From positions 6,414,495-6,478,494 of the forward strand of contig NC_088643.1 in assembly GCF_964019385.1 (NCBI RefSeq): 64,000 bases of DNA. Direction: 5' to 3'. Position numbers and translations under genes: made by a program. The notes beneath the pieces are model-generated. The model was not told where the DNA came from, did not search any database, and saw only the letters and a list, made by a program, of their open reading frames with translations. Source of the stretch: Sycon ciliatum. Taxonomy: Eukaryota; Porifera; Calcarea; Leucosolenida; Sycettidae. Positions 6,811 to 64,000 of the stretch are shown here, one piece after another. Positions within the stretch are counted from its first letter, which is position 1. Every line of letters starts with the position of its first letter.

Positions 6811-7366
6811 AATGCCATTCCGCCGAATTGACTTGACACTTGACTCCAGTGTGGGAGCAAACCCATTCCTAATATAATTATCGCCAAAGTCTCAACCACT
6901 ATTTCGTACTGTTGTGCCCAGCGCCGGGTTGCCACTAGCTGGTTTCGGAGGAGACAGCGTTGTGAATGACCGAGGATCCTCAGCGTCTGTTCTCACCGTC
7001 CAGGAACGACACTGACTCACGCTGCTATCTGGTGTTCACGAGGTTTTGTCACGCTGGAAACGGAGCGTCTCTGCAAGTTTGTATCCCTGGTGATGTTTGT
7101 GCCTGGATAGCAGTATTTAAGTGGTGCTTTTAAGGCACAATCTTCCGCAGCCTACTCAAGCTCAACTGATGAGGGGTGAATTTCCCGAAACACTGTGTAT
7201 TGAGTAGGTAGTGGTGCTTTCTTGCAGGTTTGCCGAGTCGAAGGTTCAATGGACTTCTCATATTCCCTGGATGGCAGTCGTGAGTCAGTCAAGTGTCATG
7301 TCAAGTCGGCGGAATAGCGTCAGCTCCAGTGTGGGAGCAAACCCATTCCTAATCTCTTTCTTTCGC
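6811..7366 (+). mobile_element. Hammerhead-bearing retroelement family A, copy 1
   Basis: About 400 bp from 7000 to 7320 match the repeat at 34.2-34.6 kb, including the hammerhead core. The left edge (6811-6840) is a partial inverted copy of the right part (7287-7318). A 30-bp block starting CTCCAGTGTGGGAGCAAACC occurs on both sides (about 6842 and 7324). Inverted plus direct pieces resemble the mixed pLTR layouts of Penelope-like elements. No protein is encoded. Boundaries are approximate. Confidence 0.6.
7151..7208 (+). ncRNA. Type I hammerhead ribozyme, family A
   Basis: Core CUGAUGA at 7166-7172; stem II GGGG/UCCC with loop UGAAUU; GAAA at 7187-7190; minimal stem III ACA/UGU with loop CUG; cleavage site UA with the break after A7199. 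Stem I pairs CUCAA (7161-7165) with UUGAG (7200-7204). An outer CCUA/UAGG helix leaves a 5' bulge, as in the tertiary-contact bulge of natural type I ribozymes. All invariant core residues are present, so activity is predicted. Confidence 0.8.
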
Positions 7367-11770: not shown

Positions 11771-13099
11771 CTGGCAGGGTTGAAGTGCGCTCATGTACAG
11801 GCAGGAAAGAAGATCGCACTTCCGATAAGTCAGGAAGACGGGGGCATTCGAAACTAGCCTCAATCTACTTGATTCAAACATATACAAAGGCTATGAGGAC
11901 CCAACCAGCAACTAGTGTCGCTTAGCATTTACACTTAGGCCGATAATCTCCTCTAAGCTCCGGTTGAAATACAATCAAGGGGATAGTAAAGACTCAAAAG
12001 CGACTCGCTAATTGTTTATTCCGTCAACCCTCAATTTTTTTATACTGGCAAACTTCATTGAAGACACTTGCAAATACAGTTCCCTCAACTTCTGTATTCC
12101 AGTCGTGTCTTCTCCATCCATTTAAGGGAGCAGCCTACCCATAAATTTCATATGGCATTCAATTGACCGTAACTTTGGTGTTTCTCAATGGATTTGAGTG
12201 AAATTTTGACCACACACTCCTGCCACTATGCTGGCACTCAGGACATGATTTACAAGTTCTTGCGCCTAACTGACAGGCTTTCCAGGCCGGAAAAACTCAA
12301 ATTTTCGGCATAGTGCCACGGTGTGCGAGCCACCCAGGAGCCGAACAAATGCATTTACAATTTTTTCACATTTTCGTGCCCATTCTGTCCGTGCGCGGGA
12401 CCCAAACCTAAAACAAGTCCTGAAGCAGCCATAGGTGGTGGGGTAGGGCCCCTCAACGTGGCCCTGCAATCTGTCACAACGAAACGAGTGGGAGTTCTCT
12501 CACAGAATCCCACAGATCCAAGTCAATTTTTGAATTTTTTTAGGTTTAGCACGTGCTACGAGGTCAAACCTTTGATAAAACATCCAGTGCTGGGACGTCC
12601 ACAGCAAGCCATTTCCACAGCGCTGCACACCAAATCCAGGATACCCTCAGAAACCGGCAAAGATTACCACTCACGTTCCACTAGTGCCTAGTACTGTATC
12701 CTACCTGACTCCTTGACACGACTCAAACTTGCCAAAGTCACTAAATCAACGTCAACTACAATAATCAAGCCACATATCTGCAACGTCACGAGGGTGCTGG
12801 CAAAAGTCCTGCTGCACGGCTAAAAAACGTGATTTTTGGACTTCTTTGGAATTCTGCACACTTTCGCGTGTTTCCATGATACACAAGTTGCGCACGGTCT
12901 GCTCACATTTAAATACAGTGCTGCCAACAAATGACAGCGTGCAACAAAAAATCTTTCTAATTCTTTGTGCCATTTTCAATAGGTCCGTCAAATACAGTAG
13001 TAGTAGGTTTTTCATTTTGACCCGACGAGACCATACGACGCTTGCAGATCACTGCACAAACAGTTCATCAGCCACACTCCACGAAAGCAAGTAGTAGTA

Positions 13100-13157
13100 C
13101 TCCTGACAAGTCTTGTTTCGTTCCATAGAGATAACAACGGGGAAATCATCAGAGGAG
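13100..13157 (-). ncRNA. Hammerhead ribozyme, family C, left arm (stem II damaged)
   Basis: Minus-strand copy of the family C ribozyme. CUGAUGA (13152-13146), GAAA (13119-13116), ACAA/UUGU stem III and UC cleavage site are kept. The first base of stem II is U instead of G, losing the G10.1-C11.1 pair next to the core; reduced activity is expected. Confidence 0.65.
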
Positions 13158-13797
13158 AAGCAGTTGTTGAATGAAGGGGTTTAGCTGAATAATGCTATTT
13201 TATAGAAAAGATATTGGCGCACTGAGGTGTAAACACTCAACTAACTCACATATGTGACATATCAACACAAAAGGAATAGTGCAGAATGGAGGTGTTCTGA
13301 ACCCTACCAGACACAACTATCACAAGTGCTAAATCATTCACAATGAGAAGGAGAGGTACACAGGAATAGGTTGCGCTAGTTTACACGTCACAAATGGTAC
13401 TGAGGTAGTGACAAAGATAGGTGAAAAGTAAACGCCAAGTGAAAGCCAACAAATCATCACGAACGTCTAACGTCACATCTGAAGATTGCTAGCGGCACAA
13501 GACAAATACTTCACAAACCTCGATAATTGAAATTCAGCCAGCGGTATAGTGAAAGGAAGGCTGCTGGGTGTGACACTAGCGCAACCTATTCCTGTGTGCC
13601 TCTCCTTCTCATTGTGAATGATTTAGCACTTGTGATAGTTGTGTCTGGTAGGGTTCAGAACACCTCCATTCTGCACTATTCCTTTTGTGTTGATATGTCA
13701 CATATGTGAGTTAGTTGAGTGTTTACACCTCAGTGCGCCAATATCTTTTCTATAAAATAGCATTATTCAGCTAAACCCCTTCATTCAACAACTGCTT

Positions 13798-13855
13798 CTC
13801 CTCTGATGAGTTCCCCGTTATTATCTCTATGGAACGAAACAAGACTTGTCAGGAG
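13798..13855 (+). ncRNA. Type I hammerhead ribozyme, family C, unit 1
   Basis: Stem I CUCCU (13798-13802) pairs with AGGAG (13851-13855). CUGAUGA 13803-13809; stem II GUUCC/GGAAC around a 16-nt loop; GAAA 13836-13839; stem III ACAA/UUGU with loop GAC; cleavage after C13850. All invariant residues are present. Confidence 0.85.
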
Positions 13856-14544
13856 TACTACTACTTGCTTTCGTGGAGTGTGGCTGATGAACTGTTTGTG
13901 CTGTGATCTGCAAGCGTCGTATGGTCTCGTCGGGTCAAAATGAAAAACCTACTACTACTGTATTTGACGGACCTATTGAAGATGCCGCTAAGAATTATGA
14001 CTTCTCCTGGACCAGGAAATCTGCTATTGACCAGAGGATTTGATCTGTTGCTCGGATTTTAGCGTTAGACGCCAACCTTGCAGTCAAGGTCAGGATGGAT
14101 ACGTCGCCTCAGCAGCCCACAGTTCGATGTCACACCCAGCAGCCTTCCTTTCACTATACCGCTGGCTGAATTTCAATTATCGAGGTTTGTGAAGTATTTG
14201 TCTTGTGCCGCTAGCAATCTTCAGATGTGACGTTAGACGTTCGTGATGATTTGTTGGCTTTTACTTGGCGTCTACTTTTCACCATCTTTGTCACTACCTC
14301 AGTACCATTTGTGACGTGTAAACTAGCGCAACCTATTCCTGTGTACCTCTCCTTCTCATTGTGAATGATTTAGCACTTGTGATAGTTGTGTCTGGTAGGG
14401 TTCAGAACACCTCCATTCTGCACTATTCCTTTTGTGTTGATATGTCACATATGTGTGTTAGTTGAGTGTTTACACCTCAGTGCGCCAATATCTTTTCTAT
14501 AAAATAGCATTATTCAGCTAAACCCCTTCATTCAACAACTGCTT

Positions 14545-14602
14545 CTCCTCTGATGAGTTCCCCGTTATTATCTCTATGGAACGAAACAAGACTTGTCAGG
14601 AG
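14545..14602 (+). ncRNA. Type I hammerhead ribozyme, family C, unit 2
   Basis: Exact structural repeat of the 13.8-kb ribozyme 747 bp downstream. CUGAUGA 14550-14556, cleavage after C14597, same stems. Predicted active. Cleavage at both sites would release a 747-nt RNA. Confidence 0.85.
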
Positions 14603-15024
14603 TACTACTACTTGCTTTCGTGGAGTGTGGCTTGTGAACTGTTTGTGCTGTGATCTGCAAGCGTCGTATGGTCTCGTCGGGTCAAAATGAAAAACCTACT
14701 ACTAAAAAATCTTTCCTTGCAAGGGCACATTTTCGGCCATAACTCTTGAACGCCTGGTCAGGTCGGGACACAATTTTCAGAGCATTTGCAGCTATTCATG
14801 CTCTTTCAACTGACGTAGCACTCAATATGAATTTACAGATTCAATTTTTCAGCGAATTTTTTGGTAGTCTGCCACCTTAAATCTTTCTTCAAGTTTCTCG
14901 GTGATTGTCTTGCGCCGGGTTTGTGTCATTTTGCAAAAGGAAATAAGTTTGCTTATGTAGTGACAGCACCTAAACTGCACGTCCGATTTTGTTCCCACGA
15001 CTACATGTTTATGAAGTACTCAAT

Positions 15025-15070
15025 CTGCGGACAGCATGCTGTTTCGTTCTTTTTGAACTCATCAGCGCAG
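15025..15070 (-). ncRNA. Type I hammerhead ribozyme, 228-bp family, unit 1
   Basis: Stem I CUGCG (15070-15066) pairs with CGCAG (15029-15025). CUGAUGA 15065-15059; stem II GUUC/GAAC with loop AAAAA; GAAA 15045-15042; stem III ACAG/CUGU with loop CAUG; cleavage after C15030. Complete and perfectly paired. Confidence 0.92.
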
Positions 15071-15252
15071 CACAGAGGAAATGAGGCCGAACCTGATAGC
15101 AATGGAAATAAAAATTTCCAATCAGGCCCGAACGTACCTTGCCAGAGTGCTCAAACTGACAAGTCAGTGAGCTCTGCATAACGCAAACAGCAAAGGCACT
15201 ACCCCACGCAAGAGTGCTCAACTGCTACAAGAGCAGGAGCGAAATACTCAAT

Positions 15253-15298
15253 CTGCGGACAGCATGCTGTTTCGTTCTTTTTGAACTCATCAGCGCAG
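15253..15298 (-). ncRNA. Type I hammerhead ribozyme, 228-bp family, unit 2
   Basis: Identical to unit 1 in core and all stems; cleavage after the base at 15258. With unit 1 it would excise an exact 228-nt RNA. Confidence 0.92.
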
Positions 15299-15480
15299 CA
15301 CAGAGGAAATGAGGCCGAACCTGATAGCAATGGAAATAAAAATTTCCAATCAGGCCCGAACGTACCTTGCCAGAGTGCTCAAACTGACAAGTCAGTGAGC
15401 TCTGCATAACGCAAACAGCAAAGGCACTACCCCACGCAAGAGTGCTCAACTGCTACAAGAGCAGGAGCGAAATACTCAAT

Positions 15481-15526
15481 CTGCGGACAGCATGCTGTTT
15501 CGTTCTTTTTGAACTCATGAGCGCAG
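15481..15526 (-). ncRNA. Hammerhead ribozyme, unit 3, core mutated
   Basis: Same stems as units 1 and 2, but CUGAUGA has become CUCAUGA (G5 to C, base 15519), an invariant core position. Predicted inactive. Confidence 0.85.
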
Positions 15527-15616
15527 CACAGAGGAAATGAGGCCGAACCTGATAGCAATGGAAATAAAAATTTCCAATCAGGCCCGAACGTACCTTGCCA
15601 GAGTGCTCATGAAGTA

Positions 15617-19645: not shown

Positions 19646-21510
19646 TGGGTCCTCGGTCACCTAGCCAACAGCTAAATCCTCTTGCCCAACCCTTTGTGCC
19701 CCACGCAAGCTCATCACACCCTTCCCCTCATTACGTTACATATTCTTCTATATCTATTGGTCATATTCCACTTGCACCACCATTCCTTCCTGATTCTGGA
19801 CGCCAAACTACTAAAACTCCTAATCAACCTGCCCAATTACCTTCATCCTTCTTAGTGCTCTCACTTAACTGCCGCTCCGTAGAAAATAAGTTAGCTGAGC
19901 TTAGTCAAGTCTGTGAGCAGTATTCTCCAGATATAATCTGCCTATGTGAAACGTGGCTGACAGCTGCCATAGACGTCTTCATACCGCCTGGACCGCCCAC
20001 CTACGACCAGCTCTGATAACCTGCCAGCAAGAGGCTATGGCGGTGTTGCTACTCTTGTAGCTGACAGGTCGTTCATGTCCATCAAGCGCCGCTTCGACCT
20101 TGAGCGCTGTGGACTGGTTTACCGACCATTCACCGAATGACAACTCACCGAAAGAGACTTCAACGAAAGACACTTCAACGAAAGACAGATCATCTGGAGG
20201 CGGTTTGGCTCGAATTGCGGCCAGTGATCCTTCCCTCACTCCCCCTCATTATCAGCTCTGTTTACAGACCCCCTGGAGACAGCATTTCCCTAGTCCAGGA
20301 ATTTAGTGACCTCCTAGAGGACTGTCTGTCCAACATTAGCCTCCCCAATTCTGCGATTGTACTTGCAGGAGACTTGAATGCTCGCCACTCTGACTGGTCT
20401 CCTAGGGACACCACGAATCGTGCTGGAAGGGAGTTCCGCAACCTCTCCTTTTGTTTTGGCCTTGAGCAAATGGTGACATTCCCCTCACACTTTACCTCCC
20501 ATGGCTCAACATCGTGTATTGACGTTGTGCGCACGGATCATCCTCACCTACTACTCTCTGTTACATCTCTTGCTCCTCTTGGTGCATCTGACCACGCACA
20601 GATCCTCAGTCACTTCCTACTGCCTACTGATGCTGTTTATCGTGAGGAACCTGCTGCAAACGGACATCCCGCTGCTGCACCCCAATACCACTTCAGGAAT
20701 GTTCCTGGAAAGCCGGAATATGACTTTAAATCCGTGCCATCTTCCGCCTGGGATAGAGTGAATGCAGAGCTCGCTGACATTGACTGGAGCTGGAATCTGC
20801 GTGCCAGCAACGTCAATGATGCGCTTTCGCACTTTTCTTCCATTCTCAACAGTGCCCTTGAGAAGCACCTCTGGCCATTCGGAAAGCAGCCGTATTCTCA
20901 CCGCTGCCCATGGCCCAGTCAGCCACCATGGGTTGATGCCCATCTCCGCACAGCAATCAAGTGGAAATATGATCTCTATAGCATTTTTAAGAAGTACCCA
21001 ACACAACAAAACAAACAAGCATACCAACAGCAGCGAAATATAGTGAAAACCCTGACGCGGACAAAGTACAGAGCTTATATCCGCTCAGTGCAAACTACTT
21101 TGCAGGGTAGACACCGTCCATCGCTTCACCAGTTTGTGAGACAAGCAAGAACTCGAAACGTATCACGGGAAATTCCGTCACTCACCACAGGGACTCAGCC
21201 GGCGGCTGACCCTTTGGCCAAAGCTACCACATTAAACGCCCAGTTTGCCTCTGTGACTCGGCCAGATGACCCGTTGCTCTCTATTCCCCCTATTTTCACC
21301 CCCTCGGAGCCCTCAGCTTGTTTCACGTCCCTCATCACCACAACTGCCACTGTCCGGCGTCATCTGAAGAAGCCTCCGACGTGCAAGGCATCTGGTCCCG
21401 ACGGCATCCCCAACCGGGTCCTCAAGGCCCTGGCACCATCCATAGCATTCCCTTTTTGTCATATTTTCAACATGTCATTTACCACGGGCATATTCCCTTG
21501 CGAACTGGCG
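19645..21510 (+). pseudogene. LINE A ORF2 5' part: AP endonuclease and start of RT
   Basis: From ATG 19645 the frame encodes a proline-rich leader, then the AP-endonuclease start VLSLNCRSVENKLAELSQVC and DIICLCETWL. It shifts near 20015, continues as RGYGGVATLVADRSF, and meets a short minisatellite of ACTTCAACGAAAGAC-like units (about 20108-20190). The endonuclease resumes with ISSVYRPPGD, VLAGDLNARHSDW and LGASDHAQIL. RT begins with ASGPDGIPNRVLKALAPS, then breaks off at ELANWR (about 21510), where another element starts. It would have encoded the nicking and reverse-transcription enzyme for target-primed insertion; here it is dead. Confidence 0.8.
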
Positions 21511-23555
21511 AACTGGCGACTGGCGAACGAGCTGGACACAGCAGCTTGTACCTGGGATAAAACAAAGCCATTCGACACGTGCAACAATGTGCTGCAGACG
21601 GTGAGCAGCGTGGCCAAGGACGTTTTGGGATACGTCAACCGTAGCAGACACCAGAAACCAGACCCTGCGATACAAGAGCTATCACTCAAGCAAAAGAATA
21701 TTCGTCTGAGTATCAACAACTCCACCAACCTAGCACTCAAGGCCAATCTGAAGAGACAGCGAAATGACCTTCAACACACCATCAGAGACAAGTGTCGAGC
21801 CAACGCTGAGGCGCTTCTGGAGGCCAAAGCAGCAGAGATTGAGAGGCTGAAGGACGGGGCACGCATGTTTAAGGCTGTGCACCTCATGAGACGACGGAAA
21901 GCCCAGAAACCGGCTGTGGCGGACGAGACTGGACGGTTTGCGGCAGCGACGGTCAAGCGGCAGCTGTCGTCAGAAGTCACTGCATGAAGCAGTTTCAAGG
22001 CGATGTCAGCCATGGCATGGACCCATTTGATGGAGCGCCGAGGCATCTCAACAAGCCCATTACATCTGCAGAAGTGATTACCAGCTTTAAGAAACTCAAC
22101 AACGGCAGAGCAGTGGGCCCCGATCTGGTCCCGGCGGAGCTGCTCAAGTATGGAGGGGATGCTCTGGCGCCAATATTTGCCACGATCTTGAATGGAATGT
22201 TTGAGATGCACGAGCACATCGACCTGGGAAAGGGGACATTATTCCCGCTCCAGAAACCCGGCAATCCAGTTGGACCTCCGAGTAACCTTCGACCAATTGT
22301 CCTGCTGACGGCACTGCGCAAAGCCCTCTCCATCATTACTCTTCAGAGAATATCATCACAAGTAGAACAATATCTCTCTTCAACGCACAGCGGTTTCCGC
22401 AGAGGCTGGTCAACGGCGGATGTGGTCTGGAGCCACCGTTGGTATGCTGCAGCCTGTCAGAAATACAAGAAGCAATTGGTGGTCCTCGGCATTGATATGT
22501 CAAAAGCATTTGACTGCATCCGCAGGGGCCGTCTACTGGCAGTTCTCAATTCCTTCCTGAATGAGGACGACATCCGTCTCATCCGTGTCCTACTAGCCAA
22601 CACGTCCTTCTGTGTACGCATCGGCACAGCAACATCCGAATCCGCCGACACCACTATCGGGACGCCCCAGGGCGATTCCTAATCCCCTGTTCTATTTGTG
22701 GTATATCTCGAGGCAGCTTTGCGGGATGTAAGTAGCCCTGCTACTGCCAGGGCTCGGCCATCATCGGAACTCGGCTTGCCATTTGAAATTGCGTACGCCG
22801 ACGACGCGGATTTCATCAGCACAGAGTCTGGCTGGTTGGGTGACCTGGAGCCGGTTATCGGTGACGTCCTCAACGGATGGGCTCTGAAGGTAAACCCGGA
22901 TAAAACTGAAATTACCGTTCTGGGCCGATCCCTGGACAGGGTGGCGGAACAGTGGCGCACCACCAAGAAGCTCGGCTCACTCCTCGGGGATAGCGAGGAT
23001 GTCTCTCGGAGGAAACAACTAGCCGCTGCAGCGTTTCGATCGCTCTGGTCACTATGGAGCCGGCGCAGTACCGTTGGAGAAGAACTGAGACTTCGTCTCT
23101 ACAATGCGTTTGTACTACCAGTGCTAGTATACAACGCCAGCACATGGGGACTCACGGCAGCTGCCGAGGGTGGACTCGACGCATTCCACCGCGGCCAGCT
23201 CCGTTCACTGATCGGCTTTGTCTGGCCGCAGAAGATCGCAACAACAGCACTCTACGACAGGTGCAAGGCAGAGCCGATCAGCCGGATCATCACCAGAGCT
23301 CGGTGGAGGCTATTTGGCCATATCCTTCGACTTCCCAGTGATGCCCCCGCCGTCCTAAGCATGGTCAGCTACTTTCAATGTGATGACCACAAGTGGAGAG
23401 GCCGCCCTCGCATCACCCTGCCGGTGAAGCTCGACGACGACCTCCACCGAGCTGCGTGCGGGCGATTGCAGAGTCTGGAAGATCTGGAGCGCCTATCAGA
23501 CGTAGCTGCAGTTCGAAGCGAATGGAGGCAGCTACTGGATATGACCTGCAAGTAG
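21511..23555 (+). pseudogene. LINE B reverse transcriptase, fused to LINE A
   Basis: Begins in the same frame as LINE A at a microrepeat junction (GAACTGGC units, 21497-21525). It contains a pre-RT helical region, RT motifs GRAVGPDLVPAELLKYGG, NLRPIVLLTALRKALS, GIDMSKAFDCIRRGRL, GTPQGDS and the catalytic YADDADFI. The C-terminus is of the LDAFHRGQLRSLIGFVWPQK / RARWRLFGHILRLPSD type common in non-LTR elements. A frameshift lies near 21980, and a single nonsense TAA at 22680-22682 replaces a codon between GDS and SPVLFVVYL. Otherwise open to the stop at 23555, so it died recently. Confidence 0.8.
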
Positions 23556-23857
23556 AGGTTGCGGCGATGAAACCGCGCCGTCACCTTTTTCCCAGACCAC
23601 GGAAATATCGCTCAATACACTTTAAACATTCTTTACACAAAGGATTTACAGCTACGTTTGTGCTTGTTCTCTTTATGTCTCCTATAAACTGCTTCTCTTA
23701 CCATGTCCAGCATAAGCGAACGTGTGGACTGTGTTTGTGCATGGGCGACTTGCACTTGCACTGTTGACGCTGCCGCGGAAATGCATACGAGAGAGCTTGG
23801 AAGCTCAGGGCCCTACACTATGCTTTTTTGCCTTGATGACCGGGACTGTGACTTTGT

Positions 23858-25304
23858 TTACTGGGAGATACTGAAGTGCTGTCTGACGAGGGTACGGAAT
23901 TTGGGCATATCTGGAGCTTGTCTAACACTGGGAGGCAGTTGGAGACACGTAGAGTAGCAGGAAAAGAAATGGAAATTTACGAATAGGGTAGACCTAGCTA
24001 GGGGGAGATGAACGCAGCTTCGGGCGGTGCCACCTGAATTGAACCAATTAAGGCACTGTAAATGAGCAGAGTGCTGGTCAAGAAAAATTGAATGTGCCAG
24101 GGTGCACTTGGAAGCATCAAGGTAGTGTTGCAGAGTGGTAGTGGATGCAGCAGCATACAAGTCTAGATTTGAGATATAGCGATCAGTACGAAATGTGATG
24201 CGCAGTAAACGGCGATGGAGAACTTCTAATTTACCTATGTGGGTTTTGTTAATGGTGGACCAGGCAGGGAAGCCGTACGTGAAGAGGGGAAGAATGTATG
24301 ATTTATAAAACATATTCCGGCAATTTTGGGGCAAATGGGACAAGTGACTTGACATTATGCCTACAGATCGGCATACTTTGGACGACACATGATCAGCATG
24401 GTGAGACCAGGAGAGGGCGGAATCTATGACAATGCCAAGGTGTTTATGGTGGGGCGCTACAGAGATAGGGTGACCGGGATCATCGGGAAAGTGGAAGATG
24501 GGCACTGGATCTGTGGGAGGGGGAAAAAGGAGGAGCTTATTTCGCAACAAGTTATTATTTTTGTGGTAGTCTCTAGCTTCTGTTTCTTTTTGCAGTTGTT
24601 CTTGTGCAACCCCCCCCCCCCCCCCCCCCACACACACACACATTTTTCGATGCCTAGTTGCAACGCTGACGCCGAGACCTCTGGTCAGTTGAGTTGCCCC
24701 CAGCTCTTCAGCACGTCGTCCCTACATCCCCCTAGGGGTTTTGTCCTTTTCCTCGTTTCTTTTTGTTCTCCACCTGTTTTCCAGTAGGGCTGTGTCAATA
24801 GTAAAAAATAATATAAAAAAAAGCTCGGTTTTTGTTCACATTTGGCTTAAGGTACCAAGTGCTCAGCCAGTGAACAATGTCGTTGATACAGGTCTTAACT
24901 TTGGGCTAGAGGGTGGCGTGAGATGGGGAGGAAGCAAGGACAGTTGTATCATCTGCAAACAAAGAAATATTGGGAATTGCATAGGGGAGGTCTTTAACGC
25001 ATGTGAGGAAGAGCAGGGGACCTATAATGGAGCCCTGGGGCACTCCGGATGTCACATACTCGGGGTCAGATAAGGTTCCATTCACTGTGACGCACTGATT
25101 TCGGTCCAAGAGGTAGCTAGTTATCAAGGCGAGTAGGGAGCCGGAGACACCATGGGCACGAAGTTTGGCGATCAGGCCCTTGTGCCACACGGTGTCGAAG
25201 GCCTTGGAGAGGTCGAAGAAACAGATGCAGGAGACCTTCCGCTGGTCTTTTAGGGAGCAGAGGTATTGGATTATGCGGGACAATTGCAAGGATTGCGCAC
25301 ATGT
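23858..25304 (-). pseudogene. LINE C reverse transcriptase, minus strand
   Basis: Read leftwards, 25304-24906 encodes RT motifs CFFDLSKAFDTVWHKGLI, TSGVPQGSIIGPLLFL and SLFADDTTVLASS. 24640-23858 encodes the thumb and C-terminus (KHLGIVIDSALSWSHHADHV, FYKSYILPLFTYGFPAW). The two halves are separated by stops and roughly 230 bp of foreign sequence with a C21 run and CA repeat (24609-24641). The 5' half of the element is missing. Confidence 0.8.
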
Positions 25305-25314
25305 ACAGCCTCGA

Positions 25315-25516
25315 CCTGTGTTTGAGCTGGGAGAGCTGTCGGAGTCACCTGAGAGTGTTGCTTCCAGCGTTCGCGTTGGTACTGGTCGAAAGTCGCCGAC
25401 ACGGCTCCCCGCACGGGACTCTGTTGGCATCGTAAATGTGGACCACCTCATGAAACAGTTCCGCACCTGCATCAGCGATCTTTTAGAGGAGCGGATGGAA
25501 ACGGTCCTAGATTAGT
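25315..25516 (+). pseudogene. LINE ORF1-like fragment
   Basis: A short plus-strand frame ending HLMKQFRTCISDLLEERMET then stop. It is Ser/Glu-rich, lies at the edge of LINE C and ahead of LINE D, and is probably the remnant of LINE D ORF1 left after an internal deletion. Weak call based on composition and position. Confidence 0.35.
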
Positions 25517-25689
25517 AGAAGGTACGAAGGGGGTTCTAGAACAAAGTTGACCCCGGAAGTGACCTTTCGATGGGTTGACATGACCCTGTCAATTTTTGAC
25601 GTGACCGTGTCAGAAATGTGACAGGTTATTTCGACATTACTTTATTTTGACATGTTGACGTGTTTCAATCACGTGCTTACCTGAAATGT

Positions 25690-26945
25690 CACGATTAAAC
25701 TTCTGGACACTTTCCATCCCGGTTCAAAATTGCCCACATCACCCCGATATTGAAGTCAAAACAAGACCCCCGTAATTGCCCTTCCAATCACCGCCCGGTG
25801 TCTCTCACGTCTATTCTCGCCAAACTCCTTGAGCAGCTCGTGTTCTCTCGTCTCCAGGTGTTTTTCCAAGAACGTTGCCCGTTCCATGAAGATCAATTTG
25901 GTTTCCGGAAGCACCGGTCGACCGCGCAACTCCTCACGAAGGTAACGAATGATTGGCTGCTAGCCCGCGAAGGGGGTCTGCATACAGCTGTTGTTTGCGT
26001 TGACCTGAAGAAGGCATTTGATACCGTGGAACACCAGCAACTTCTCATCGCAATCGCGGCCGTGGGTATTTCTGGCATAGCCCTGGCTTGGTTGCAGTCA
26101 TACCTCCGTGGACGACAGCAGCGCGTGGTTACCTACATCGGAACGTCTCCTCTGGTACCAGTTACTAGTGGCGTACCTCAAGGCACCATTCTGGGCCCTG
26201 TGCTCTTCAATTTATATGTGCAGAAGCTGCCGCTCACAGCTGATGCTCTTTCCTGCAAGCTTCCGATGTTCGCGGATGACATGACGCTGTATGCCAGTAG
26301 AAGGTCGCCAAATGAAGCTGTCAACGCCGTCAACAAGGTACTTTCAGTGCTTGCTCTAGATCTTGCGGACCTAGGGTTGTCAGTCAACTCTGCCAAAACT
26401 GTCGCCATGGTCATTTCCAAACTCCCCCTGCACCTGTCTGTTCCTGTGATACTCAACGATCAGGTATTGACCCGCGTTACCAGCACCCGAATCCTGGGGG
26501 TCATCATTGATGACCGCCTAACGTGGTCGCCTCACATTGACTTTGTAATTCGCAAGACATGTGCTAAGGTTGGCGCTCTTCGTCGGTCCTTTCGGCAATT
26601 GAGCAGGAAGGCCAGGAGGCAATTTATTGTATCAGTCATTCTACCTGATCTTTTGTACTGTTGCTCGTGTTTTGTAACGAAGCTGTCCGCTAAGGACCGC
26701 CAAAGGCTCTCTACTGTGTTCCGCCGTGCTGTGCGAGCTACCTGTGGTGCTAAGTCACAGGACGACATCACGCCATTATTGACCACATTGGCGATTTATC
26801 CATTTGAACACTATGTAATTCTCAACTTTGCCCAGTTTATTCATAGAAATCATGTCATCATCTCACTGTCTACCCTAACGGAATTATTTCCACCGATCAC
26901 AACAGGCCTTAGAACTAGAAGCCACTCTAATGCTTCCATTGCCAC
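25690..26945 (+). pseudogene. LINE D reverse transcriptase
   Basis: Jockey/CR1-type RT from RFKIAHITPILKSKQDP onward. Motifs seen in order: NHRPVSLTSILAKLLEQLV, DQFGFRKHRSTAQLL, CVDLKKAFDTVEHQQLL, TSGVPQGTILGPVLFNLYV, catalytic MFADDMTLYAS, then ILGVIIDDRLTWSPHIDFV and a LLYCCSCF thumb. The RT is uninterrupted for more than 400 codons. No ORF1 or endonuclease precedes it, and the C-terminus is cut at 26945 by another insertion. Confidence 0.85.
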
Positions 26946-27265
26946 ATTATATATATTTATATTTATTACAACATCTCAAGACTCGGTGGAAACACCGGCC
27001 AATGTTAAAGAGAGTGGGTGATTGCCAACCACGGCGATAAATAAAAGTAAGGGGAGGGAAAAAGAAAGAGTAGCAAAATGAACAGCAACAACTCCGTAAA
27101 GAAAGAGAAAGATAATGTCAAATAAAAACAGTGAAAAACACAGAGACGCAAAGGACATGTGGATAATGAGCTATGCATGTCGTGGTAAATAAGGGGCGGC
27201 ACCGATCTTAAACAGGCGGAGTGAGGTCACATCTAAGCACCGGACAACTGATGGAGTAAATTCTT
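26946..27265 (-). mobile_element. Minus-strand LINE/SINE 3' end inserted in LINE D
   Basis: It interrupts LINE D between codons for HSNASIAT and FSNRAA. The left border, read on the minus strand, is an A/T tail (AATAAATATAAATATATATA), as expected for the 3' end of a retroelement. No coding frame is recognised. Confidence 0.55.
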
Positions 27266-33277: not shown

Positions 33278-33686
33278 ACAGCGATGTAAATGTCGATAAG
33301 ACCGACGCAATGTGTGTATCGACCGTAGGAAGAGCATAGGAGACACAACGTACAAGGAAAGACTCCGTCATGCACAAGTTTAGGGAAGTGATAAGATCAG
33401 CTGTGTAGGCTTTCGACAGTGTAGCTACAAGTCAAGAGCCATGCGATGCGTGTACGTGTACGCGTCCGTGTGCATGTTACATAACTGGAGTGGAAATAGA
33501 TGTACTAGCACTATTGTGTGTTGGTGAGTTTCATGACATTGAATTGCTGCATGAAGTTGATTGTTCCAACTAGGAACACACGCTTCTTGCCGAACTTGAC
33601 ACTTGACTGACTCACGACTGCCATCCGGAGCACACGAGGAGCACGTCCCATCTTCCACTCGGCAAACCTGCAAGAAAGCACCACTC

Positions 33687-33744
33687 CCTGCTCAATACAC
33701 GGTGATTCGGGGAATTCACCCCTCATCAGTTGAGCTTGAGTAGG
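33687..33744 (-). ncRNA. Hammerhead ribozyme, family A, core mutated
   Basis: CUGAUGA (33729-33723) and GGGG/CCCC stem II are kept, but GAAA reads GAAU (33708-33705), destroying the A15.1-U16.1 pair beside the cleavage site. Predicted inactive. Confidence 0.75.
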
Positions 33745-34171
33745 CTGAGGAAGATTGTGCCTGAAAAGCACCACTTATAATAATACTGCTCTCCAGGCCA
33801 AACCATCACCAGGGATACAAACTTACAGAGACGCTTTGTTTCCAGCGCAGCGCGACAAACACCTCGTGAAGCTCCAGGCAGCAGCGTGAGTCAGAGTCGC
33901 TCATGGAGTTGTGATAAACAGACGTTGAGAGCCAGTATAGCTATTCGCAACGCTGTCACCTCCAACAACTAGTCGCACGTCCGCGTGAGGGACAACAATA
34001 CGAACTTAGAAGTTGCGACTTCGGCGGTAATAGTCATGAAGTTGATTGTTCCAACTAGGAACACACGCTTCTTGCCGAACTTGACACTTGACTGACTCAC
34101 GACTGCCATCCGGAGCACACGAGGAGCACGTCGCACCTTCCACTCGGCAAACCTGCAAGAAAGCACAACTC

Positions 34172-34213
34172 CCTGCTCAATACACCGTGTTTCGGGGAAT
34201 TCACCCCTCATCA
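34172..34213 (-). ncRNA. Hammerhead ribozyme, family A, truncated at an inversion joint
   Basis: Stem II and GAAA are intact. The 5' stem I strand is lost, and the core reads GUGAUGA because the inversion breakpoint falls at the first core base. Inactive. Confidence 0.7.
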
Positions 34214-34375
34214 CAACTCCATGAGCGACTCTGACTCACGCTGCTACCTGGAGCTTCACGAGGTGTTTGTCGCGCTGGAAACAAAGCGTCTCTGTAAGTT
34301 TGTATCCCTGGTGATGGTTTGGCCTGGAGAGCAGTATTATTATAAGTGGTGCTTTTCAGGCACAATCTTCCTCAG

Positions 34376-34433
34376 CCTACTCAAGCTCAACTGATGAGGG
34401 GTGAATTCCCCGAAACACCGTGTATTGAGCAGG
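34376..34433 (+). ncRNA. Type I hammerhead ribozyme, family A, intact
   Basis: CUGAUGA 34391-34397; stem II GGGG/CCCC, loop UGAAUU; GAAA 34412-34415; stem III ACA/UGU with loop CCG; UA cleavage site after A34424. Stem I GCUCAA/UUGAGC with an outer CCU/AGG helix and a 5' bulge. All invariant residues present. Confidence 0.88.
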
Positions 34434-34780
34434 GAGTGGTGCTTTCTTGCAGGTTTGCCGAGTGGAAGGTGGGACGTGCTCCTCGTGTGCTCCGGATGGC
34501 AGTCGTGAGTCAGTCAAGTGTCAAGTTCGGCAAGAAGCGTGTGTTCCTAGTTGGAACAATCAACTTCATGACTATTACCGCCGAAGTCGCAACTTCTAAG
34601 TTGAATTGCTGCATTGCATTCTTCTTCCATGTACATGTACGTACTTTCCACATGTTCAATCGAACTTTCTCCAGCACTACCAGGTACATGCAGGTCAGCA
34701 TCGGTTGTAGCAAGGGATGAATAGTACACAGACGATACTGCTTTCCGTCTTTCTCCTCACCTACGTCGCTGTATTCCGTT

Positions 34781-48075: not shown

Positions 48076-48194
48076 TACGTACAATGATTTGAAGAAGGGC
48101 TGAGGCTTCCTGCAGCTTCATCTGTGAAAAGAATTCGGGTGGACACACCCATTCCCATAGCGCTGCATATCACATCTGAACCAGTTCCGTTATT

Positions 48195-48225
48195 TTACAA
48201 CGTTTCGGCACTTGGCCATCGTCAG
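48195..48225 (-). ncRNA. Hammerhead-like core in left pLTR
   Basis: CUGACGA (48225-48219), one unpaired U, GGC/GCC short stem II, GAAA (48206-48203), then a CGUU/AACG stem III. The expected U before the cleavage site reads G, so activity is doubtful. Confidence 0.55.
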
Positions 48226-48477
48226 GTAATAACAATGAATACCGTGGAAGCCACACAAGAGCAGTACATACGCAGAGTGTAGCGCCAAAAAAGATGCGAA
48301 TTATGTCACCTAGTATGACACAGAGAGAGAAAAGGCGCAACTAGCACATCACGGAGGAGAAGCAGCAGAAGGTAGCGCGCATTGTGCTCTGTGAATGGCG
48401 TTACGCAGCGTGTAGCGCCAAAAAATAAAATGATGCGAGTTATGTCACCTCTATACAGAGGCAGGATTGTCACCTCT

Positions 48478-49522
48478 ATACAGAGGCAGGATTCTCCGTT
48501 AGTACCGCTCCTCTACAAACGCTACATCGACGATATCCTGCTGCTATGGACCCACGGCAGAGAGAGCTTGATGCGGTTTGTGCAGCATTTCAACTCTGCA
48601 CACCCAAGTATCAACTTCACATAATTATGAGCTCAGCGAGGTGAGTGGCTCCATAAATTATATGGATATCACAATTATGATCCAGGAAGGCAAGCTGGCA
48701 TACAAGCTGTACCAGAAGGCATGTGCTAGTGGTCTACTCATTGATTATACTTCGGCAGTTCCCCACCATATCAAATTGGCAGTTGCTTCGTCACAATTCC
48801 TAAGAGCTCAGAGGCTCTCATCGAATACCAGAATGCGTGCAGAAAGTGAAGCGATGGTTCATGAGCAATTAAAATTGAACAATTACCCAGAGAAAATCAT
48901 TGAAGAGGCACGCACTGCCTCCATAAGGCCAAAGCGTCGTCGCCATGCCAACCCATGCTGCGCATTTCTAAAGCTTCCATATAAGTCAGATAAAGTACAT
49001 CAAGCAGTGAATAAAGCAATCAGAAAGTATAAAATTCCGGTTAGAGTCGTATATGGGCACACTGGTAGCCTGAGGCGCACATTGTGTCGCTCCGCCCTCG
49101 TTCCTCCTCTATGTGTCAAGGCTGCAAATCCGCTACAACCGAAAAAGAGAGGTCGCCCAAAGGGGCCGTGTATCTCGTGTATATCCGGGGGACCGGATGT
49201 ATGTATGCAGAAGAATGTTGTATATCAGCTGAAGTGCAAAGAATGTCCGGAACAATATGTTGGTGAGACTGGCCGCTTTCTGGAAACTCGCCTGGAAGAA
49301 CATAATGGTGAGGCAAGACGCCAGGAACTCGACAAGCCATGGGGCCAACATTTTCGCACCACTCACCCTGGATGTAAGCTTAACTATGGGCAAAGTGCAT
49401 TCTCTGCAGTTGAAGTAATAGGAAGAGAGCCTGATCGAGCCCGTCGCAAACTGCGCGAGGCGATTGAGATTCGTGATGCCAAGCCCCATGTGAACATAAG
49501 CACCGGATGGGATTTGTTGTGA
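48478..49522 (+). pseudogene. PLE polyprotein C-terminal part: RT palm end and GIY-YIG endonuclease
   Basis: The first frame holds LYKRYIDDILLLW with the catalytic YxDD motif (48515-48550). A frameshift near 48620 leads to YELSEVSGSINYMDITI, the PLE continuation of the RT. The following linker is rich in Lys/Arg (ASIRPKRRRHANPC). A CMQKNVVYQLKCKECPEQYV segment runs into GETGRFLETRLEEHN, the GIY-YIG nuclease (about 49203-49310), with Cys pairs before it (CISC, CKEC) as in animal PLEs. It would nick target DNA and prime reverse transcription. Most of the RT (fingers and first palm motifs) is missing, so this copy cannot act alone. Confidence 0.85.
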
Positions 49523-50060
49523 ATTTTCTCAGCTTCCCCTGCTGCTACTTCAATATCACTGAATAATTATAATATGAGGCGGGTCACTCAAAACCATTCT
49601 ATTCCTGATGCCTCGTCGCGTCCCTGGTGGTAACAGTTTGGCATGGAAGTTTTAACCTCATAGTGCATTGACTCATGGGGCTCCGTGCTCCCCTCCTAGA
49701 TCCTGTGCTAGAATTAACACCATAATTATTTGGCATGTGCCCTCACTTCGTAGAGCACAACGGTGCGCTCTTCTTCTCCGTGATGTGCACAGTTGCACCT
49801 TCTCTCCCCCCCCCCCCCCCTCTGTATCTAGGTGACATAACTCGCATCATTAAATTTTTATTTTTTGGCGCTACACGCTGCGTAACGCCATTCACAGAGC
49901 ACAATGCGCGCTACCTTCTGCTGCTTCTCCTCCGTGATGTGCTAGTTGCGCCTTTTCTCTCTCTGTGTCATACTAGGTGACATAATTCGCATCTTTTTTG
50001 GCGCTACACTCTGCGTATATACTGCTCTTGTGTGGCTTCCACGGTATTCATTGTTATTAC

Positions 50061-50098
50061 CTGACGATGGCCAAGTGCCGAAACGTTGTAAAATAACG
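50061..50098 (+). ncRNA. Hammerhead-like core in right pLTR
   Basis: Mirror copy of the left pLTR motif: CUGACGA 50061-50067, stem II GGC/GCC, GAAA 50080-50083, stem III CGUU/AACG. Same uncertain cleavage site. Confidence 0.55.
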
Positions 50099-50171
50099 GA
50101 ACTGGTTCAGATGTGATATGCAGCGCTATGGGAATGGGTGTGTCCACCCGAATTCTTTTTACGTACAATGA

Positions 50172-55309: not shown

Positions 55310-55587
55310 GCTGCTGCTGCTCATGATCTTGATATTTACAGCCAGATATTTAATCATCCCAGTCTTATTTGTATCTTTTCTTGCCGCCTTAGAACACAAT
55401 TGGCAACCATAACACCAGAATGGTTATGTACAGATATACAATAATAAATGCTGCTGTCTGATGATCGCTAAAATGGCTGATCATTTGTAGCTGTAAAGTT
55501 AATTTAGGTACGTTCGGGCCTGGTTTAAATCTGGCTTTGGAAATTCTATTGTTCATTGCTGTCAGGGTCGATCTCATTTTCTTTATG

Positions 55588-55623
55588 CTACGCTGACGAG
55601 TCCACAAAGAACGAAACATTTAG
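55588..55623 (+). ncRNA. Hammerhead relic, stem III and cleavage site deleted
   Basis: CUGACGA, stem II GUCC/GAAC and GAAA are present, but the sequence then jumps past stem III and the cleavage site. Confidence 0.65.
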
Positions 55624-55819
55624 TATTTCACTCCTGCTCTTCTAGTAGTTGAGCACTCTCGTGGTGGGTAGTGCCTTTGCTGTTTGCGTTATGCAGAGCT
55701 CACTGACTTGTCGGTTTGAGCACTCTGGCATAGTGGCAAGGTGTGTTCGGGTCTGGTTTAAATCTGGCTTTTAAAAATTATTTTCAATTCAAATCAGGTT
55801 CGGCCTCATTTTCTCTGTG

Positions 55820-55863
55820 CTGCGCTGATGAGTCAACGAAGGACAAAGCAGTTCTGTCCCCGG
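55820..55863 (+). ncRNA. Hammerhead relic, GAAA mutated
   Basis: CUGCG-CUGAUGA is intact, but GAAA reads AAAG. Confidence 0.7.
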
Positions 55864-55871
55864 ATTGAGTA

Positions 55872-59468: not shown

Positions 59469-62400
59469 ATGGACAACCCTGACCAGCCTCCCGAAGGCGT
59501 AACAGACGTCCCTCCTTCTCCTTCCAACGATGAAGAACCTTCCTCACCAGGACTTCAGCGGTCTGGGAAAAGACGCCGCCGGTCCTCATCAATAACGTCG
59601 TCCGACGATGAAGAGGCCATTGCCCGCAGACGCGAACAAGCCAGGGTTCGAATGCAGAGGGCAAGGTCACAGGAAACTGAAGAACAGGCTGATCGCCACA
59701 GACTTCTAAATCGTCGACAAACTGCTGCGACACGCTCTCAGGAGACGCATGAACGAACTCTGGAACGTAGAGACTGTGACTGCCGCCGAACTGCTGAGGC
59801 ACGTTCGCATGAGACACCTGAGCAGGCAGACCATCGCCGAAGTCAAAGCCGTATGCAAGTTGCCAGAGCGAGGTCACTCGAGACGCAAGGGGACACGGAG
59901 GTACGAAGAAGCCAAAATGCTCAGCGGGTGGGAGCACCCCCGGATGAAAATGCATCCGCCACAGGGCCAGATCCCCACGAACAGCCTATGGCCACTACGA
60001 GAGCAGGTGAGCGTACTGGTAATTTCACCCGTAACATACAGACCATTAAACCAGATATCTGGGGTAAACTGGGCTTCCATTACGACAGCAACTTGGACTA
60101 TCCCACTCACAGGTCCATCACATTAGGTGGCATGAACGTCCTGTGTAAGCATTGCAAGGCCAGAACGTGGAAAAATGAGCCGCCAGGTATATGTTGCTCA
60201 AGTGGAAAAACTTTGTTGATCTCCCAGACTATGCAGAGCCACCTCAGCCGCTCAAAAGCCTGCTTTCTGGCCTTTCAACTCAGGAATCCAAGCACTTCCT
60301 CCAGAGCATTCGCAAATACAACAGTGCATTCCAAATGACATCATTTGGTGCGAATGAGCAGTACATGGACGGCTTCATGCCAACGTTCAAGGTGAAAGGG
60401 CAAATCTACCACAGACTTGGGTCAATCCTTCCCCTGGCAGGCGAAGAGCACAAGTTCTTGCAAATTTATTTCATGGGCGACAGCGAGCGAGAAACTAGCA
60501 GGCGGTGCGAAGTTATTCACAACCTCCACCACGTCACTGTTGCTGACCTGCAGGCGATGCTCCATGCGCACAATCCGCACATCGTCAACATCAAGACGCG
60601 ATTGGATGTTGGCAATGTCCCAGACTTGCGACTGAAGTTGAGCGCAGACCGAGCACCACAAGGTGAACACCCCGGTCGCTTCAATGCACCCACGGTCAAT
60701 GAAGTTGCCGTTCTGATAGCAGGCGATGCGCATGAAAAGAGGGACATTGTACTGCGTTTGAGAGACGAGTCTGTGAACAGGATAGCGGACACACACAGGT
60801 CATACGATTCCTTGCAATACCCTTTGCTGCTGCCGTATGGCGAAGATGGCTATCACTTCCTACATAGGCAGGTCAATGCGCAGACCCGTGTTCCGACGAG
60901 CAAGAAAGTGACAGCGAGTGACTTCTACGCGTACAAACTGATGGTCCGCAATGACTCCTTCAACACAATCCTCAGAGGTGCTCAGTTATTCCACCAGTAC
61001 ATTGTTGACATGTATGTGAAGATCGAATCTGAACGTCTATCCTTCATTCGCTTCAATCAGGCCAGTCTCCGAGCAGATAACTACGTTCATTTACGTGACG
61101 CCATCAGCAATGACGGAAATCCTGCAAACGTCCGTCGGCAAGTCATTTTGCCCGCAACTTTCACTGGCGGCCCACGATACATGAAAGAAAAGACACAAGA
61201 TGCAATGACGTATGTTCGAGAGCGCGGCAGGCCACAGCTTTTCATTACCGCCACATGCAATCCTAAGTGGCCCGAGATAGCTGCAGAGCTTTTTGACGCC
61301 CAGTCACCGCATGACAGAAACGACCTCATCGCACGTGTCTTCCGTTTGAAATCAAAGTTGTTCATGGATGTCCTGACAAAAGGCGAATTGTTCGGCCTGA
61401 GCACTTGCAACATGCACACGATAGAGTGGCAAAAGAGAGGCCTGCCGCACATGCATGCACTACTGTGGCTCCAGCATTCAATTCAATCTGCTGATGTGGA
61501 TGATGTTGTTTGTGCGGAAATTCCCTCGGCGGAGGATGACCCTGTCCTCCATGACTTGGTCAAAAAGCATATGATCCATGGACCTTGCGGTGCACTAAAC
61601 ACAAGCGCGCCATGCATGAAAGATGGGAAGTGCAGCAAAGGGTACCCCAAACCAATGGTGAAACACACCCAGACGGACAGGGATGGATACCCTCTTTACC
61701 GCAGGCGCTCCCGGGAAGATGGCGGGTCATTCACGGTGTTGAAAATTAGAAACGAAGAAGTCGAAGTCGACAACAGATGGGTTGTGCCTTACAACCCAGT
61801 CCTCCTTCGATTGTTCAGTGCGCACATCAATGTGGAGGTGTGCAACTCTGTAAAGGCCATCAAGTACATCACAAAGTACATCAACAAAGGTTCGGATCAG
61901 GCAGTCTTCGGTGTCCAGAATGAGAACGATGAGGTCAGCAGGTACCAGACAGGTCGGTATGTTTCCAGTAGCGAGGCAGTCTGGCCCATTTTTGGCTTCC
62001 CGATTCATGGCAGGTATCCAACAGTCACCCACCTTGCGGTTCACTTGGAGAATGGCCAGCGAGTCTACTTCACAGAAGAGACCGCCCATACGGTAAGTGA
62101 GAGTCCGCCAGAGACTACTCTCACTGCTTTTTTCAAGCTTTGTGCCACTGATGCCTTCGCGAGAACTCTTCTGTACAACAGCGTGCCTTCCTACTTCGTG
62201 TGGGATGCCCAACGGAAGAAATTCAAGAGGCGCAAAGTCGGCACTCCTGTCCCAGGCTACGAGGGGGTCAGGAAAAGTGATGCTCTCGGCCGAGTGTACG
62301 CCGTGCACCCAAGGCAGGCAGAGTGCTATTACTTGCGGCTCCTTCTGCACACTGTTCACGGGCCGACTTCGTTCGATGATGTCAGGACAGTAGATGACCA

Positions 62401-64000
62401 AGTTTGCGAAACGTACAGGCAAGCCTGTCAGCTTCGGGGTCTGCTGCAGGACGACGAGCATTGGCTCGGTGCCTTGCTTCAGGCTGCCGAGTCCAGCCAT
62501 CCAGCTGCGATCAGGCACCTCTTTTCCATCATGTCCTTCTGCGAAGTTAGTGATCCTTTGCGACTATGGAATGAATTCCGTGAGGCAATGTCAGAAGATT
62601 ATTTGCAGGCGGCGCGTCGACAGGAAGGGAATGAGGCGCGAACATTTTCTCAGATGGAGTTCGATCAGTGCCTTTGCGCCATCCAGACACACCTTCTCAC
62701 CATGTGCGGTAGAACCTTGGTAAGTGCAGGCCTTCCAGACCCATCACAGGCAAGTTCAACTCTGTCCGACCAGCCTCTTGCAAGGGAGACCAACTACGAC
62801 CGTGCCGCGTTGCTTGAGCAAGTACGACAACAAGAACCGACACTAACCGACGATCAACGTTTGGCGTATGACGCAATTTGTGACCAGGTACAGACAAGTG
62901 ACGATGGGTTGATTTTCCTCGACGCACCCGGTGGTACAGGTAAGACATACGTCACAAACTTACTTCTTGCAAAGGTTAGATCAGGTGGACACGTTGCCTT
63001 GGCTGTTGCCTCTTCCGCAATAGCAGCCACACTCTTGGCTGGTGGTCGGACTGCTCACTCCACATTCGCTTTGCCCTTAGATCTGCACCGCCTTGAGGAG
63101 CCAACCTGCTCGATCGCCAAAGATTCTGAGAAAGCAGCGCTCCTTCGTGAGGCTGTGCTGATCGTGTGGGACGAATGCACGATGTCACACAAGCATGCTT
63201 TCGAGGCTGTCGACAGGACTTTGCGAGACCTGCGCAGCTCTAATTCCTTGATGGGTGGTGTGACGGTTGTGATGTCCGGTGACTTTCGCCAAACGTTGCC
63301 TATTGTTCCTAGAGGCACTTCTGCTGATGAGATCAATGCCTGCATCAAGTCTTCGGCGCTCTGGCGTTCCGTGGTGGAGTACACACTTACCACAAACATG
63401 CGAGTTCTGCGTAGCAGTGATACCAATGCGGGTCAATTCTCTGCGCAGCTCCTTAAAGTCGGCAACGGTGCAATACCCGTTCTGCCTTCAGGCGAAATTG
63501 CGGTTCCGGGTGATCTCGCACAGATTGCTGCTTCCCAAGAAGACATTGTACGAATAATCTACCCTGATGTCGCGGACAATTTTGTAGATCCCACTTGGTT
63601 GAAAGAAAGAGCTATCCTTGCACCTTTGAATGACACTGTCACTGACATGAATGGGATACTCATGCACAAACTGCCAGGTGACTTGGTCCAGTACGAGTCT
63701 GTTGACACTGTCGAAGATGACGACTCTGGTGATTACCCTGTTGAATTCCTGAACTCCTGTAACCCCTCAGGCTTACCAAGTCACCTGCTTCAGCTCAAAG
63801 TGGGTGTGCCGGTCATGCTTCTCAGGAACCTGGATGCGCCGAAGTTGTGCAATGGAACAAGATTGTGAAGCGCATCCAGCGACATGTAATTGAAGCTGAG
63901 ATTTTGACTGGCTCGGGTGCAGGAGAACCGGTGTACATACCGAAAATACCCACGACATCCACCAATCTGCCATTCCAACTTCGACGTGTCCAGTTCCCAC
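59469..64000 (+). CDS. Helitron Rep/helicase protein (two frameshifts, runs off window)
   Basis: ATG 59469 opens a Ser/Arg/Glu-rich N-terminus with R..Q.....R...E repeats and a zinc-binding segment CKHCKARTWKNEPPGICC (about 60142-60200). A 1-base shift near 60210 (A-run) moves to a 1,200-codon frame. This holds the Rep HUH motif in RGLPHMHALLW (about 61438-61470), the KYITKYINKGSD tyrosine motif (about 61861), then a Pif1-type helicase with Walker A DAPGGTGKTY (62920), Walker B IVWDEC, GDFRQTLPIVPRG and TTNMRVL. A second 1-base loss at 63864-63867 truncates at NGTRL, but VKRIQRHVIEAEILTGSG continues in the next frame to the window end. Rep nicks and helicase unwinds during rolling-circle transposition. 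Recently inactive. Confidence 0.93.

Follow-up and report, generated by a model that had tools for sequence, protein, structure and literature searches.

It was reported in 2020 that metazoan non-LTR retrozymes are tandem, non-coding repeats of 150-450 bp that carry type I hammerheads, are accompanied by target duplications and give rise to circular RNAs, the units of the coral Acropora measuring 220-240 bp (PMC7229834). The same article names Penelope-like elements as strong candidates for their mobilisation (PMC7229834, Cervera and de la Pena 2020), and a review of that year describes retrozyme repeats as carrying no motif that points to an enzyme (PMC7761336). The Penelope-like protein of the anole is described as cutting AT-rich DNA at 5'-ATT-3', with both strands cut and extended, and as starting reverse transcription internally, past the hammerhead of its element, with tandem copies among the products; unprocessed RNA is given as the main substrate, and ribozyme mutants as having no effect on insertion (PMC11167929). 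In rotifers the target duplications of Penelope copies, where there are any, measure 8-10 bp, and Penelope elements are said to prefer simple AT-rich targets (PMC3846280).

By every criterion that can be tested from sequence, the locus that we analysed in Sycon ciliatum is a metazoan non-LTR retrozyme. According to the published description, metazoan retrozymes such as those of Acropora millepora have the same hammerhead type, the same unit size and the same short tandem non-coding repeats without LTRs, and also the same duplications of more than 4 bp, shorter and longer variants, and Penelope-like sequence in the genome (PMC7229834); the likeness is drawn from that description. Plant LTR retrozymes (PMC4918200), as portrayed in PMC7229834, are likewise non-coding hammerhead retroelements that spread via circular RNA (a probable route here), but they differ from our element in possessing LTRs, in type III hammerheads arranged as dimers and in target duplications of only 4 bp (PMC7229834). 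Schistosome SINE-like elements are, as described, small hammerhead retroposons too (PMC8490949). The element itself belongs to the class described in 2020, and what we add is the anatomy of its junctions. The passages of PMC7229834 consulted mention neither a 3' end fixed relative to the cut nor a TA target, and no report of a fixed retrozyme 3' end appears among the titles and abstract openings listed for open-licence papers on retrozymes together with target-primed reverse transcription or Penelope.

A tandem hammerhead insertion and its neighbours

The element is a 590-bp insertion at positions 15019-15608 of the window (the whole 64-kb stretch of DNA that was analysed), with its RNA sense on the minus strand, and consists of 2.6 tandem 228-bp monomers. 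A preliminary description, made from the letters alone, had reported an exact 228-bp periodicity and a 2.6-mer, and TRF run on the window recovered both (period 228, 2.6 copies, 99% match, score 1180, span 15013-15609). The two full monomers, at 15030-15257 and 15258-15485 on the minus strand, run from cut to cut and showed no difference from each other in a letter comparison. Each has a GC content of 48% and no long open frame, the longest stop-free stretch being 75 codons when the unit is treated as circular. Both size and GC content lie within the bounds of metazoan non-LTR retrozymes (150-450 bp, tandem and non-coding, GC under 50%). The third monomer, delimited by junction analysis and letter comparison at 15486-15608 (minus strand), is truncated at its 5' end and differs from the full units by a single base at 15519, where hammerhead position G5 is changed to C on the minus strand.

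Both borders of the insertion are directly abutted by ATGAAGTA (TACTTCAT on the minus strand), at 15011-15018 beside the 3' end of the element in RNA sense and at 15609-15616 beside its 5' end, as the earlier reading of the same sequence on both sides had it. This exact 8-bp target duplication exceeds the 4 bp above which those of metazoan retrozymes lie. Since ATGAAGTA is not rare in the window (4 occurrences in 64 kb, about 1 expected), the weight lies on its exact abutment at both ends and on the repetition of this arrangement, with other letters, at sister copies. No LTRs bound an internal region: the monomer repeats directly, and by eye the flanks are unrelated except at duplicated loci. 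The monomer folds better than shuffles on either strand (z -2.2 and -2.35), and values so similar carry no strand signal.

Each unit reads CUGAUGA...GAAAC...GUC on the minus strand, and its helices I, II and III are ordered as in a hammerhead. Type I hammerheads with intact cores lie at 15025-15071 (predicted cut between 15030 and 15029) and at 15253-15299 (predicted cut between 15258 and 15257), both on the minus strand; the third, at 15481-15527 on the same strand, has the G5 to C change at 15519 as its single difference, so that its core reads CUCAUGA, and is presumably inactive. In a 1-kb search the three cores matched Rfam RF02275 (Hammerhead_HH9) with 28.4, 28.8 and 24.7 bits (E 9e-5, 7e-5 and 1e-3). 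All three scores are below the Rfam gathering score of 52, and for this reason a search of the entire window at default settings lists no hammerhead. The preliminary description had claimed two complete type I hammerheads and a third with G5 changed to C, and had proposed a covariance-model check of the first on the minus strand; core letters and RF02275 agree with it, the first core giving the 28.4-bit match. Its word "textbook" overstates the sub-gathering Rfam score. Among minimum-energy folds of 53-nt stretches, only that of the G5C copy showed all three helices of the hammerhead, both intact copies folding otherwise, and in none of the three copies was the fold energy better than that of shuffles. 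A type I hammerhead with a complete catalytic core is nevertheless what the RF02275 match, though sub-gathering, and the exact intact cores found throughout the genome (below) point to.

The window holds several other repeats. Beside the retrozyme, at 12958-14704, lies another repeat with direct (747-bp spacing) and inverted copies, and with hammerhead-like cores that have a long loop 2 at 13085-13152 on the minus strand and at 13803 and 14550 on the plus strand. A third hammerhead-like family (CTGATGAGGGG...CCCCGAAAC) occurs at 7166, at 34391 (plus) and at 33550-34602; it forms a foldback in the window and is also repeated in loci L028 and L035. In the stretches searched, Rfam did not recognise the hammerhead-like cores of either repeat. 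Furthermore, a Helitron ORF, in which a Helitron-like N-terminal domain and a PIF1 helicase domain were recognised, spans 60179-63868, and several LINE fragments with endonuclease and reverse transcriptase domains lie at 20104-27021.

Copies across the genome

We found 5,688 matches to the core pattern at up to 3 mismatches in the 538-Mb assembly (313 contigs), and none to the reversed control; the intact-core pattern was matched exactly by 3,411 of them, the other 2,277 being pooled regardless of where they differ. Among fetched copies the units were of about 226 bp, about 228 bp and 209 bp, with longer forms that have about 17 extra internal bases. A search of phage records gave no match. 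A second insertion within the window, at 55507-55869 on the plus strand, is older than the one at 15019-15608: its hammerheads are damaged, the first giving a weak RF00163 match (E 0.8), and its 3' end, read by eye, is GATTGAG followed by TA. It has no clear target duplication, the duplication search giving 2 letters at the wrong boundary.

The junctions were analysed in a sample selected by the hammerhead core only, comprising the window and 40 loci of contig C1 (the first 20 listed exact-core clusters with the window excluded, and 20 more, four clusters of the second stretch being omitted), which yielded 42 arrays with 65 exact cores. The sample is drawn from one contig, misses badly decayed copies and contains the duplicated loci L044/L045 and L047/L048/L051. 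In its 65 cores the variable pair of helix II was C-G in 40, U-A in 24 and C/A in 1 (L051), and was thus paired in 64; this offers mild support for selection on the RNA, only mild because the pair change may be one event between subfamilies.

Tandem repeats of this kind could also be ordinary satellite DNA that unequal crossing-over and segmental duplication have spread, the hammerhead being a relic, and copies have in part been multiplied at the DNA level, as loci with common flanks attest (the chromosome 13 group, the C14 group, and the duplicated loci of the sample). Against this explanation stand the small size of the arrays, of which 29 of the 42 sampled have a single exact core and none has more than six, together with the fixed 3' end and target duplications at unrelated sites described below. 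We therefore disfavour the satellite explanation and hold it to be very improbable. One locus of a separate, query-biased set, L010, has ten cores. Copies are dispersed rather than confined to satellite blocks, with 20 separate clusters in the first 6.9 Mb of C1, the window excluded. The genome search that the preliminary description had called for thus returned thousands of cores in short, dispersed arrays with target duplications, and not the satellite blocks without duplications that it had named as contrary to a retrozyme.

A lineage with dead ribozymes was suggested by the loci from the first 40 places of a search, nearly all of whose solo copies and array ends were C5. On that evidence the element would be a SINE-like linear retroposon whose true template is the uncut, ribozyme-dead (G5 to C) RNA, since those loci were dominated by C5 cores that stood alone or mostly at the ends of arrays. 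The pattern was an artefact of ascertainment: the search skips common words, so that the rare C5 letters of the query chose the loci, and for this reason the sample was reselected by the hammerhead core alone. Exact cores in the genome have G at position 5 in 3,411 cases, C in 18 and A or T in 9 (27 other than G), and only 1 of the 65 sampled cores is C5, the window's own. The SINE-like explanation is refuted as a general rule and keeps next to no probability. At position 8, where the 3,411 also have G, 38 exact cores have another letter. Among the exact cores without G at position 5, C is mildly over-represented relative to A and T (18 of 27, p 0.0004 for an expectation of one third; with loci merged by eye, about 13 of 21, p 0.007), C (18) outnumbering A plus T (9) although transitions should lead; the fetched C5 copies are mostly single or at array ends, with L013 as the exception.

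Junctions and target site

Of the sampled arrays, 41 were informative at the 3' end, L071 being excluded as it runs past its last exact core. In 40 of the 41, at least 9 of the 11 letters of CGCAGATTGAG follow the cut, and then only 0 to 5 letters of the unit's continuation, TATTTCGC; the element is thus left 11 nt past the ribozyme cut. In the window these 11 nt are 15019-15029 (minus strand), with the duplication starting at cleavage+11; sister copies have the same tail. The tails of L066, L071 and L073 were read by eye, and L074 breaks the rule, being broken and continuing for about 26 nt. Beyond the fixed end the unit reads TATTT, and many targets start with TA, so that the exact border is blurred by up to 5 nt.

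Target duplications scored at least 8 in 34 of the 42 arrays (8 did not reach this score) as against 7.15% of mismatched locus pairs, with means of 10.8 and 5.6; both figures are inflated by duplicated loci and by simple repeats, (TA)n among them. In the 36 arrays with a score of at least 7, the duplication starts between cleavage+9 and +13 in 25, most commonly at +11 (13 arrays), and later in the remaining 11, several of which lie in simple repeats. Duplications in the sample measure very roughly 6-16 bp. The 5' ends, in contrast to the constant 3' end, are scattered over the unit, none of the 42 falling within 3 nt of the ribozyme cut; four (L044, L045, L069 and L081) start at most about 4 nt from the inferred start point, near exactly one turn, too few for a peak.

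Tails of opposite orientation were seen in L053, L009 and L010, those of L053 and of L010 pointing towards each other with (TA)n between them, and at C1:14563194/14563754 and C1:14667854/14668265, apparently across a (TATC)n stretch. They possibly reflect use of both target strands, or two insertions at one microsatellite.

The tail TGTCCGCAGATTGAG with its following stretch occurs 4,187 times in the genome. The first 100 listed, all on C1, divided into 36 internal junctions and 64 external flanks. Of the 54 flanks that were distinct, 40 start with TA, a dinucleotide with a frequency of 0.049 in the window, and T stands at position 3 in 28 and at position 4 in 28. Past the fixed end the retrozyme RNA reads UAUUU, and pairing between target and template could contribute to the choice of TA; a preference of the endonuclease is the alternative, and both fit the data. 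LINEs too use AT-rich targets.

What do these junctions say of the template? From the predicted cut, a self-cut linear monomer would begin with CGCAG and end with GUC. The insertions end in GUC-CGCAGATTGAG, so the RNA that was copied must have had those ends either joined, as in a circle, or never separated. With cut linear RNA as the usual template, 5' ends should pile up at the cut through run-off, and no such peak is seen, which again argues for ligated or uncleaved RNA; the constant 3' end in turn argues for a fixed internal start of reverse transcription, at the end of CGCAGATTGAG as we infer. We take the template to have been ligated (circular) or uncleaved RNA, probably copied from that one internal start.

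Of these two templates, an uncleaved linear multimeric transcript, entered internally by a LINE or Penelope-like enzyme while the ribozyme serves other steps, has the same unbroken junction, and the protein of the anole Penelope-like element is described as acting on unprocessed RNA in vitro (PMC11167929). It requires an identical fixed internal start, and the exact intact pattern is kept in 3,411 of the 5,688 core matches, so that uncut RNA would be scarce if, as we assume, the ribozyme is fast. We regard an uncleaved template as unlikely. It seems to us fairly probable that the element is a retrozyme of the metazoan non-LTR type whose template is rejoined or circular RNA, subject to target-primed copying from a fixed point, with a Penelope-like enzyme as the likeliest agent.

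Candidate machinery and a proposed cycle

Since the monomer has no long open frame and encodes neither a reverse transcriptase nor a GIY-YIG domain, it could only be a non-autonomous user of Penelope-like machinery. The window contains a Penelope-like fragment at 48088-50159 (plus strand), bounded by a 12-bp target duplication (TACGTACAATGA, at 48076-48087 and 50160-50171) and with inverted 307-bp arms that both bear hammerhead-like cores. A GIY-YIG domain was found in its ORF 48572-49522 (24.1 bits, cutoff 22.6), and no reverse transcriptase domain in that ORF, the one scanned. The fragment is possibly a relative of the machinery that mobilises the retrozyme. Both arms carry a 16-base piece that lies close to the 3' end of the fragment, and the genome has 378 occurrences of it. 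Among those listed, 42 distinct continuations diverge from the prevailing one and were treated as external ends; the divergence sets in 1 to 9 letters beyond the piece, and the 8 bases that follow are 73% AT. Retrozyme and local Penelope-like family both have AT-rich targets, whereas a strict TA is seen in the retrozyme only.

The published features of Penelope-like elements match the retrozyme junctions, by analogy. In comparison with the hammerhead-bearing elements described in PMC11167929, the retrozyme is alike in that reverse transcription starts internally, from a fixed point beyond the hammerhead, and in its AT-rich target and tandem copies; it differs in that it has no protein, that its hammerhead is a standard one with closed helix III, that its template is probably circular and that the distance from cut to start is 11 nt, which is much longer in the anole element (PMC11167929).

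Under the cycle that we propose, retrozyme arrays would be transcribed, and intact hammerheads, as the conserved cores suggest, would cut the transcript into 228-nt monomers. Their GUC and CGCAG ends would be rejoined; the junctions require ends that were joined or never cut, and a circle is the form we consider probable. A target-primed reverse transcriptase, most likely a Penelope-like protein, would cut AT-rich DNA, mostly at TA, and begin copying inside the unit, 11 nt beyond the cut site, at a point that was fixed in the sample. Copying for less than one turn or for several turns, with a variable stop, would leave single or tandem copies with the features that the sample displays: a constant 3' end, a 5' end that varies, and duplications of the target that span very roughly 6-16 bp. 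The retrozyme-like tandem hammerhead element and retrozyme cycle of the preliminary description are supported, as far as genomic letters can speak to them: anatomy, duplications, thousands of cores, short dispersed arrays and seemingly ligated 3' junctions all fit.

A bolder proposal, which we advance tentatively as a possibility, is that Penelope-like proteins copy animal retrozymes from circular RNA, loading at a single point 11 nt past the cut and rolling round the circle. If this is true, each insertion records one rolling-circle reverse transcription. The constant 3' end, the scattered 5' ends and the TA target make the route by which animal retrozymes enter the genome, and the enzyme that they use, directly testable by biochemical means.
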